Source: Duganella sp. 1224
GTDB lineage: Bacteria; Pseudomonadota; Gammaproteobacteria; Burkholderiales; Burkholderiaceae_D
Assembly: GCF_013408245.1 (NCBI RefSeq)
Contig: NZ_JACBYS010000001.1
Span: 2,170,001 to 2,234,000, forward strand
Length of the DNA stretch: 64,000 nt
Reading direction: 5' to 3'
How positions within the stretch are numbered: the stretch's first letter is position 1; each line of letters starts with the position of its first letter. The notes under the pieces were generated by a model. That model saw only the letters and a program-made list of their open reading frames with translations. It was not told the DNA's origin and searched no databases. The position numbers and the translations under genes are program-made. Below are positions 28,597 to 30,168 of the stretch, piece after piece.

Positions 28597-30168
28597 CTAC
28601 TCGGTCCACGCCAGCTTCAGGTGCGCGCCGATCTCGCGCAGCAGGTCGTGCTGGTTGACCGGCTTGGACAGGAAAGCATTGGCGCCCACCTCCAGCGAGC
28701 GCTCCTCCTCTTCCCGCGTGGAGCTGGCGGAAATCATCAGCACCGGCGTGGCGGCGGTGCGCGCGTCGGCGCGCAGGCGACGCATGGTTTCGATGCCGTC
28801 CATGCCGGGCATGACCATGTCCAGCAACACCATGTCCGGCCCCAGCGCCTGCGCCTGCATCAGCGCCGAGGTACCGTTTTCCGCCTCCAGCGTGCGGAAG
28901 CCCAGCGAGCCCAGCAAGTCACGCATCAGCGCCCGGTTGGTGGCCACATCATCCACCACCAGGATGGTCTTGCGCGGCCCCGCGTAACCGGTGGCGATGT
29001 GCTCGGTGGCGGCCTGCGCGCCGGGCACGTCCGCCACCGGCAGCGGCACATCGAACCAGAAGCGGCTGCCCTCGCCCGGCGCGCTGTCCACCCGCAGCGC
29101 GCCGCCCATCAGCCGCACCAGCTGGTGGCTGATCGCCAGCCCGAGCCCGGTGCCGCCGGCGCGCCGCGACGGGTCGCCGGCCTGCTCGAACGGGCGGAAG
29201 ATCGCCTCCTGCTGCTCGGCGGCGATGCCGACACCCTGGTCGATCACCTCGAACCGCAGCAGCGCCATGCCCGCCGCCTGCCCCGTTGCCGCCGGCAGCG
29301 GCGACACGCGCAAGCGCACCGCGCCGCAGTCGGTGAACTTGACGGCGTTGCCCAGCAGGTTGAGCAGCACCTGCCGCAGCCGCGTTTCATCGACGCTGAC
29401 CGCCTGCGGCAAGCCCTCCATCAGCTCCAGCTCGAAGTACAGGTGCTTCTGCTCGGCCCGCACACGCATGATGTCCGCCACCACCGACAGCAGATCGCCC
29501 AACCGCACCGGGCGCGGATGAAACTCCATCTTGCCGGCTTCCACGCGCGACAGGTCGAGCACGTCGTTGATCAGCGCCAGCAGATGCTGGCCGCCCTGCT
29601 GGATGGTGCTGATGCCGGTCTGCTGCGGCACGGTCAGGCTCTTGTCGCGCTTGAGGATCTGGGTGTAGCCGAGAATGGCGTTGAGCGGCGTGCGCAGCTC
29701 GTGGCTCATGGCCGCCAGGAAGGCGCTCTTGGCGCGGTTGGCCACCTCGGCGCGCTCCATCGCCGCGCGCAGGTCGTTGTTGGCTTGCTGCAGCTCGGCG
29801 TTGACGGCGGCCAGTTGCGCCGGGCTGGGGATGCGCAGCGCGATCGGGATCAGCCGCACCATGGCGATGGCGGTCACCACCGAGGCGACCGCCGTGATCG
29901 CCTTGAGCGACACCGCCACCACATAGTCGGGCCGCCAGATCACCCAGATATCCATCACGTGGGTGGCGCCGCAGGCCAGGATGAACACGCCGAAGGCGAT
30001 GAACATCCAGTCGAACGGCATGTCGCGCCGCTTGCGGATGAAGTACACCAGGCTGATGGGAATGGTCAGATAGGCCAGCGCGATCAAGGCATCCGATATC
30101 ACGCTGGTCCACAAAATCGAGGGTATCCACAGGAAGCAGTGCCCGTGCGGCATGAAACTGTCCATCAC
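28597..30168 (-). CDS. Ethylene-receptor-like hybrid histidine kinase
   Basis: 523 residues. Three transmembrane helices (about 12-32, 50-75, 80-105) form a domain resembling the ethylene-binding domain of plant ETR1 and cyanobacterial SynEtr1. D25, Y32, I62, C65 and H69 (ISDALIALAY; GVFILACGATH) fall at the same numbers as in ETR1, where C65 and H69 bind Cu(I). A short helix leads to HisKA (H155, SHELRTPL), HATPase (N box about 274; GTGLGL) and a receiver with D405/D406 and D449. No GAF domain, unlike ETR1. Ethylene binding is inferred, not shown. Confidence 0.9.
   Translation of the reverse strand: MMDSFMPHGHCFLWIPSILWTSVISDALIALAYLTIPISLVYFIRKRRDMPFDWMFIAFGVFILACGATHVMDIWVIWRPDYVVAVSLKAITAVASVVTAIAMVRLIPIALRIPSPAQLAAVNAELQQANNDLRAAMERAEVANRAKSAFLAAMSHELRTPLNAILGYTQILKRDKSLTVPQQTGISTIQQGGQHLLALINDVLDLSRVEAGKMEFHPRPVRLGDLLSVVADIMRVRAEQKHLYFELELMEGLPQAVSVDETRLRQVLLNLLGNAVKFTDCGAVRLRVSPLPAATGQAAGMALLRFEVIDQGVGIAAEQQEAIFRPFEQAGDPSRRAGGTGLGLAISHQLVRLMGGALRVDSAPGEGSRFWFDVPLPVADVPGAQAATEHIATGYAGPRKTILVVDDVATNRALMRDLLGSLGFRTLEAENGTSALMQAQALGPDMVLLDMVMPGMDGIETMRRLRADARTAATPVLMISASSTREEEERSLEVGANAFLSKPVNQHDLLREIGAHLKLAWTE

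Follow-up and report, generated by a model that had tools for sequence, protein, structure and literature searches.

A hybrid histidine kinase gene of Duganella sp. 1224 begins with a domain that resembles the ethylene sensor of plants and lies between tRNA-Leu genes; the locus raises the question of what this kinase is likely to sense and how it is held in a tRNA cluster. The window, that is, the whole stretch of DNA analysed, is 64,000 nucleotides long (contig NZ_JACBYS010000001.1, 2,170,001 to 2,234,000, forward strand), and all positions given below are those of the window.

Gene, reading frame and domains

The open frame at 28597–30168 (minus strand) was verified in the window; translation from the ATG at 30165 gave a protein of 522 residues with the following features:

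28597..30165, minus strand: hybrid histidine kinase, 522 amino acids (Pfam and translation from the ATG at 30165)
29833..30117, minus strand: ETR1_N sensor region, residues 17–111, with three predicted membrane helices (Pfam, AlphaFold2, three hydrophobic stretches)
29701..29703, minus strand: H155, predicted phospho-accepting histidine in HELRTPL (motif; invariant in 58 aligned proteins)
28819..28821, minus strand: D449 of the receiver, the aspartate predicted to accept phosphate (motif LLDMVMPG)

The original prediction had called the gene an ethylene-receptor-like kinase and had proposed a Pfam search as the check; that search returned ETR1_N (PF25487) at 7.6e-37 (125.9 bits, cut-off 27), far above chance. 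The parts that it had placed behind the sensor, HisKA-HATPase-receiver, were confirmed by Pfam matches and complete motifs; the order was ETR1_N (17–111), HisKA (145–211), HATPase_c (259–376) and Response_reg (401–511). The output domain is an intact histidine kinase (HisKA, HATPase_c and receiver): H155 in HELRTPL, NLLGNAVKFT (269–278), DQGVGI (309–314) and GTGLGL (338–343) of the kinase and D449 in LLDMVMPG and K501 of the receiver are all in place. The Pfam scan of the receptor gave no GAF match at E 0.001, residues 115–172 being one predicted helix, and no PAS, GGDEF or EAL domain. Its sequence places the receptor, as a further member, among the bacterial ethylene receptors already known.

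Residues of the predicted ethylene and copper site

Counted from the ATG at 30165, all seven ETR1 residues are present as D25, Y32, I35, P36, I62, C65 and H69; Y32 is presumably one of the seven required by ETR1. The claim that D25, Y32, I62, C65 and H69 carry the same numbers as in ETR1 holds from this ATG and fails from the GTG at 30168, the start implied by a frame of 28597–30168, from which each number is one higher; the claim of a complete set of site residues stood, I35 and P36 being found in addition and completing the seven. The codons and an N-terminal motif are located as follows:

30058..30093, minus strand: codons of D25, Y32, I35 and P36, helix 1 (translation)
29980..29982, minus strand: codon of I62 (translation)
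29959..29973, minus strand: codons of C65 to H69 in helix 2, the two end residues being predicted Cu(I) ligands (by their equivalence to C65/H69 of ETR1; PMC6586836)
30136..30147, minus strand: motif H7-G8-H9-C10 before helix 1 (kept in 52, 53, 49 and 52 of 53 distinct proteins)

Seven residues are required by ETR1 for ethylene binding (PMC11819568); C65, H69, I35, P36 and I62 are named for ETR1 in PMC6586836, D25 and C65 in PMC11819568. The identity of numbering with plant ETR1 is partly luck, because 23 of 27 same-array orthologues begin about 7–9 residues earlier (start chosen by script) and the AzoEtr1 equivalents of D25, C65 and H69 are D35, C75 and H79 (PMC11819568).

Conservation was assessed on 79 receptor rows from the fetched loci, which gave 53 distinct proteins (tblastn matches below 45 bits dropped; some matching genomes without a locus). 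D25, Y32, I35, P36, C65 and H69 were identical in 53 of 53, I62 in 49 with V in the other 4; among the best-listed 119 of 2131 database homologues, 116 had all seven residues identical. The invariance of C65 and H69 in these 53 proteins would also suit a kinase that chiefly reports membrane Cu(I) and binds ethylene incidentally, and the conserved extra HGHC motif before helix 1 could bind metal, a metal role for its histidines being speculation. A pure copper site, however, needs no Y32, I35, P36 or I62, yet all are kept, and no copper-handling family match was obtained among the six neighbouring window proteins scanned; copper reporting as the main function is considered improbable. C10 is the sole cysteine ahead of helix 1 (translation), so that the two-cysteine dimer disulfide feature of plant receptors is absent.

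Predicted structure

AlphaFold2 (58 sequences) gave a monomer (mean pLDDT 84.2, pTM 0.50; residues 1–6 and 382–387 below 50) with helices 15–45, 52–77 and 81–111, followed by a single long helix 115–172 that runs into the kinase. Since no GAF or PAS domain was found in the receptor, the sensor in this model appears to be coupled straight to the kinase helix. Comparison of the sensor domain with solved structures gave no significant sequence match (best E 0.1). Foldseek of the full model was tried as a guide to the sensor and discarded as uninformative on it: the 50 matches listed of 1282 were, by title, kinase structures or complexes that include a kinase.

Distribution of the family

A profile search found a single ETR1_N copy in the Duganella sp. 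1224 genome. At E 0.001 the search matched 32 of 74 genus genomes, 66 of 392 in the family sample (65 above the cut-off), 29 of 398 in the phylum sample (28 above the cut-off) and none of the 14 control genomes. The database search with residues 1–118 gave 2131 proteins, and the nearest 20 named loci, 77–87% identical, bore Duganella or Rugamonas titles and in one case Oxalobacteraceae bacterium. Judged from these counts and matches, the receptor is an ordinary member of a family that is widespread yet patchy.

The tRNA-Leu(CAG) array

The receptor lies in an array that is bordered by an exoribonuclease gene, presumably rnr, and has the following parts:

25711..28197, minus strand: rnr-type exoribonuclease gene bordering the array (ORF; a 1298-base piece anchors 72 of 74 genus genomes)
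28454..28538, plus strand: tRNA-Leu(CAG) copy 1, convergent with the receptor (ARAGORN, Rfam)
28550..28577, plus strand: terminator-like hairpin, with an A-tract and a T-tract, that separates the receptor from tRNA copy 1 (1 such hairpin where shuffles predict 2.0; not significant alone)
30316..30400, plus strand: tRNA-Leu(CAG) copy 2, divergent from the receptor (ARAGORN, Rfam)
30460..31032, plus strand: gene of a DUF1349 protein, cargo of the second interval (Pfam DUF1349, 1.1e-68)
31156..31240, plus strand: tRNA-Leu(CAG) copy 3 (ARAGORN, Rfam)
31267..31351, plus strand: tRNA-Leu(CAG) copy 4 (ARAGORN, Rfam)

The hairpin could serve both tRNA copy 1 and the receptor. The four flanking tRNA copies of the window are complete and 85 bases long, three of them identical (whole copies compared).

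Genus loci anchored by the 1298-base piece comprised the window and 71 others (L142–L212); G090 and G093, without a proper match, were dropped. The original prediction had found the tRNA-Leu setting unexpected; across the 74 genus genomes this was not borne out, the receptor lying between tRNA-Leu(CAG) copies upstream of rnr and antisense to the tRNAs in 27 of 32 carriers, and the array housing other genes in other species. The slot is the first interval in 26 carriers and the second in G004; five carriers have the ETR1_N gene elsewhere (G005, G033, G073, G017, G081). Four slot carriers (G008, G023, G031, G091) are single-contig assemblies, most others being drafts, which rules out faulty assembly as the source of the setting.

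The 72 arrays hold 2 to 6 tRNA-Leu copies (5, 15, 41, 10 and 1 genomes, respectively), on one strand throughout. Intervals of at least 700 bases number 88 of 203, and at least one such interval is present in 67 of 72 genomes; these counts are lower bounds, because contig ends truncate G078, G094 and G089 and the fetched stretch truncates G019, and related genomes are non-independent. Among intervals 60 bases long or longer, 131 of 152 have at least 5 T in a row within their first 90 bases, as would fit a terminator behind every tRNA.

The cargo varies between species. Nine of ten chosen representatives matched a family (Pfam or NCBIfam) and one matched none; the families were NF038122 metalloprotease, beta-lactamase-fold serine hydrolase, S41 peptidase, PA3715-family protein, FAD monooxygenase, PEP-CTERM protein, DnaJ-TonB protein, ImmA/IrrE-type (M78) peptidase and M15/VanY-type carboxypeptidase. 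Of the 72 genomes, tblastn found the DUF1349 gene at the array in that of the window alone. Since other genomes carry unrelated genes in it, the tRNA-Leu(CAG) array upstream of rnr behaves as a slot for unrelated accessory genes. The use of such an array to house genes is a pattern of genome evolution in its own right and open to testing; titles and abstract openings of open-licence PMC papers described no tRNA array that takes up genes in this way, which does not prove that no such description exists. Of protein and location, the location among tRNA genes is the less usual, and it is stable within one Duganella clade.

Two further observations concern genes between tRNA copies. In G019 (L213:591-19714) about 19.5 kb separate tRNA-Leu copies, and 5 of the 13 ORFs listed there were scanned; the stretch includes receiver-kinase genes, a radical SAM protein and a lantibiotic-dehydratase-like gene. 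At 605–2626 of the window two tRNA-Ser(GCT) genes lie on the minus strand 1.8 kb apart, with ORFs at 857–1528 (plus strand) and 1506–2360 (minus strand) between them; genes inside this pair are possible.

Inheritance and rearrangement of the array

The rnr tree was built from 72 genomes with one gene by a quick method, 22 of its 69 inner branches being weak. The slot receptor required 4 changes on this tree against a shuffled mean of 22.0, and well-supported branches force only 2; the pattern agrees with a single gain and three losses, namely in G029, in G083/G078/G021 and in G094/G024/G067/G010. ETR1_N copies outside the slot required 2 changes. Receptor distance followed rnr distance with a Spearman coefficient of 0.65 (351 pairs from 27 slot carriers, the pairs being non-independent). 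The receptor is inherited as cargo of the tRNA-Leu(CAG) array; it is dispensable, since the lineage lost the gene about three times.

tRNA genes are classic targets of genomic islands, and the variable contents of the array would agree with arrival of the receptor on an integrase-borne island. Against this, the repeats on either side are whole tRNA genes, in most cases with a terminator-like T-run after them, rather than tRNA fragments; 22 of 27 slot intervals, the window's included, have no second non-overlapping ORF of at least 80 residues and hence could not accommodate an integrase (of the additional ORFs in the remaining 5, some were scanned); and a single gain accounts for the receptor on the rnr tree. 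Island delivery is therefore given little credence, and phage insertion at a tRNA was rejected on the same grounds.

When G004 (L188) is set against its closest relative G030 (L189), the 90 bases upstream of its copies 2, 3 and 4 best match those of copies 4, 2 and 3 in G030 (88, 88 and 92%), that is, the tRNA units are cyclically permuted and the receptor travels with its own unit. This points to recombination between tRNA copies in G004, a draft of about 40 contigs in which misassembly at the repeated tRNAs is possible. Clustering of all tRNA upstream regions at a single loose cut-off did not separate the promoter types and was abandoned; pairwise identities did separate them.

Loss of the receptor by recombination of the flanking tRNAs should delete one tRNA; G029, the nearest genome that lacks the receptor, still has four copies and so lends this route no support, and the loss there probably occurred inside the interval. 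The first interval of G029 (218 bases) retains a terminator-like and a promoter-like stretch; the latter resembles the receptor 5' flank by eye and is 62–69% identical over 90 bases to the copy-2 and copy-3 promoters alike.

Proposed signalling

With all seven residues that plant ETR1 needs retained in its ETR1_N domain, the receptor is likely a copper-dependent ethylene receptor that would signal by phosphorelay (probability about 0.75). Beside the domains, residues, gene position and inheritance observed above, we infer copper, ethylene, the direction of the relay and its output as follows. A dimer of three-helix bundles would hold Cu(I) via C65 and H69; ethylene at the copper would move the long helix 115–172 and so alter autophosphorylation at H155; phosphate would pass from H155 to D449 of the fused receiver and from there to an HPt protein and a response regulator encoded elsewhere in the genome; the output would most likely be c-di-GMP-dependent attachment, as suggested by relatives.

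The relay partner is proposed to be unlinked because no response-regulator or HPt gene adjoining the receptor was found at the locus, unlike AzoEtr1. The genome has 24 HPt matches, mostly within long frames; two of them lie in short frames (130 and 139 residues), and its HPt proteins are possible relays. A PAS-GAF kinase (32827–35037) and a GGDEF protein (35134–36291) were considered as dedicated partners and are not favoured: the kinase match lies behind 69 of 72 arrays, receptor present or not, and the three arrays without it are on contigs ending early (G078, G094) or have a large insert (G019).

Leads to c-di-GMP from relatives

The second ETR1_N kinase of G004 (L219:3017-6987) overlaps a gene of 900 residues with the order REC-PAS-GGDEF-EAL-REC by 4 bases. 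Three fetched family members (L126:382-1866, L133:1-1866, L135:1-1866) combine ETR1_N, PAS and GGDEF in a single protein, two of them also with EAL. A search with residues 1–330 of L126 found 4092 proteins (scoring limited to the 7999 candidates sharing most words); the best 120 of these (P0121–P0240, query included) all had ETR1_N and GGDEF, as the query would favour, and among those 120 the GGDEF motif was present in 119 and all seven ethylene residues in 112. The ETR1_N-PAS-GGDEF fusions, mostly with EAL and with named examples from Noviherbaspirillum, Herbaspirillum and Methylophilus, are possible one-protein converters of ethylene to c-di-GMP. A single-receiver gene adjoins the relatives L014, L127 and L134 (neighbours of L131 and L132 are cut by the locus end), and the ETR1_N copy of G017 overlaps a receiver-HATPase gene.

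The fusions in methylotrophs such as Methylophilus, for which ethylene is no obvious cue, and the ability of Cu(I) sites to bind other pi-acceptors leave some room for a pocket that senses, instead of ethylene, another small unsaturated or gaseous ligand such as CO or an alkene made by microbes. Retention of the complete ETR1 residue set speaks against such a ligand, as does ethylene binding by the bacterial members SynEtr1 (PMC6682694) and AzoEtr1 (PMC11819568), and only a small chance is allotted to it.

For an ethylene receptor, c-di-GMP is the best guess as output, by analogy with relatives: the L219 overlap, the ETR1_N-GGDEF fusions, the lowering of c-di-GMP by ethylene in Azospirillum brasilense, where the route from AzoEtr1 is called unknown by the authors (PMC11819568), and the diguanylate cyclase gene beside GeiEtr2 in Geitlerinema (PMC6682694). 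These relatives offer a candidate route for the AzoEtr1 question of how ethylene alters c-di-GMP. Ethylene receptors with diguanylate cyclases did not appear as a pattern in the titles and abstract openings of open-licence PMC papers; this does not prove its absence. A wider, tentative proposal, to which we give rather less than an even chance, is that betaproteobacteria wire ethylene into c-di-GMP (directly via ETR1_N-PAS-GGDEF-EAL proteins and by phosphorelay via ETR1_N kinases) and that, in addition, the Duganella tRNA-Leu(CAG) array stores and shuffles accessory genes by recombination of tRNA copies, free of integrase.

Comparison with known receptors

Few microbial ethylene receptors have been tested; before AzoEtr1 (2025) there was direct evidence for Synechocystis and one fungus (PMC11819568). 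The Duganella clade, which appears to have its receptor as one compact hybrid kinase, would make ethylene sensing testable in a simple setting. Members of the genus Duganella occur on barley roots (PMC12401772).

AzoEtr1 of A. brasilense: Like the Duganella receptor, this protein (525 aa) has an N-terminal three-helix ethylene-binding domain, the seven residues and a histidine kinase, and it binds 14C-ethylene via its first 130 residues, which include the same seven (PMC11819568). It has a PAS domain, a separate response-regulator gene that overlaps its own stop codon and no fused receiver (PMC11819568), whereas the Duganella receptor has no PAS match, a fused receiver and no such neighbour gene.

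Cyanobacterial receptors: SynEtr1 (Synechocystis) and GeiEtr1/2 (Geitlerinema) share the seven-residue domain, the kinase output and one N-terminal cysteine; they differ in the cyanobacteriochrome, GAF or PAS between sensor and kinase, and SynEtr1 senses light too (PMC6682694).

Plant ETR1: D25, Y32, I35, P36, I62, C65 and H69 have the same numbers, and kinase and receiver are common to both. Plant receptors have GAF and two N-terminal cysteines (PMC6586836, PMC6682694), in contrast to the absence of a GAF match and the lone C10 in HGHC of the Duganella receptor.

ETR1_N-PAS-GGDEF-EAL proteins (betaproteobacterial examples): The sensor is homologous, with the seven residues identical in 112 of the 120 listed; it is fused to c-di-GMP enzymes in these proteins and to a kinase in the Duganella receptor.
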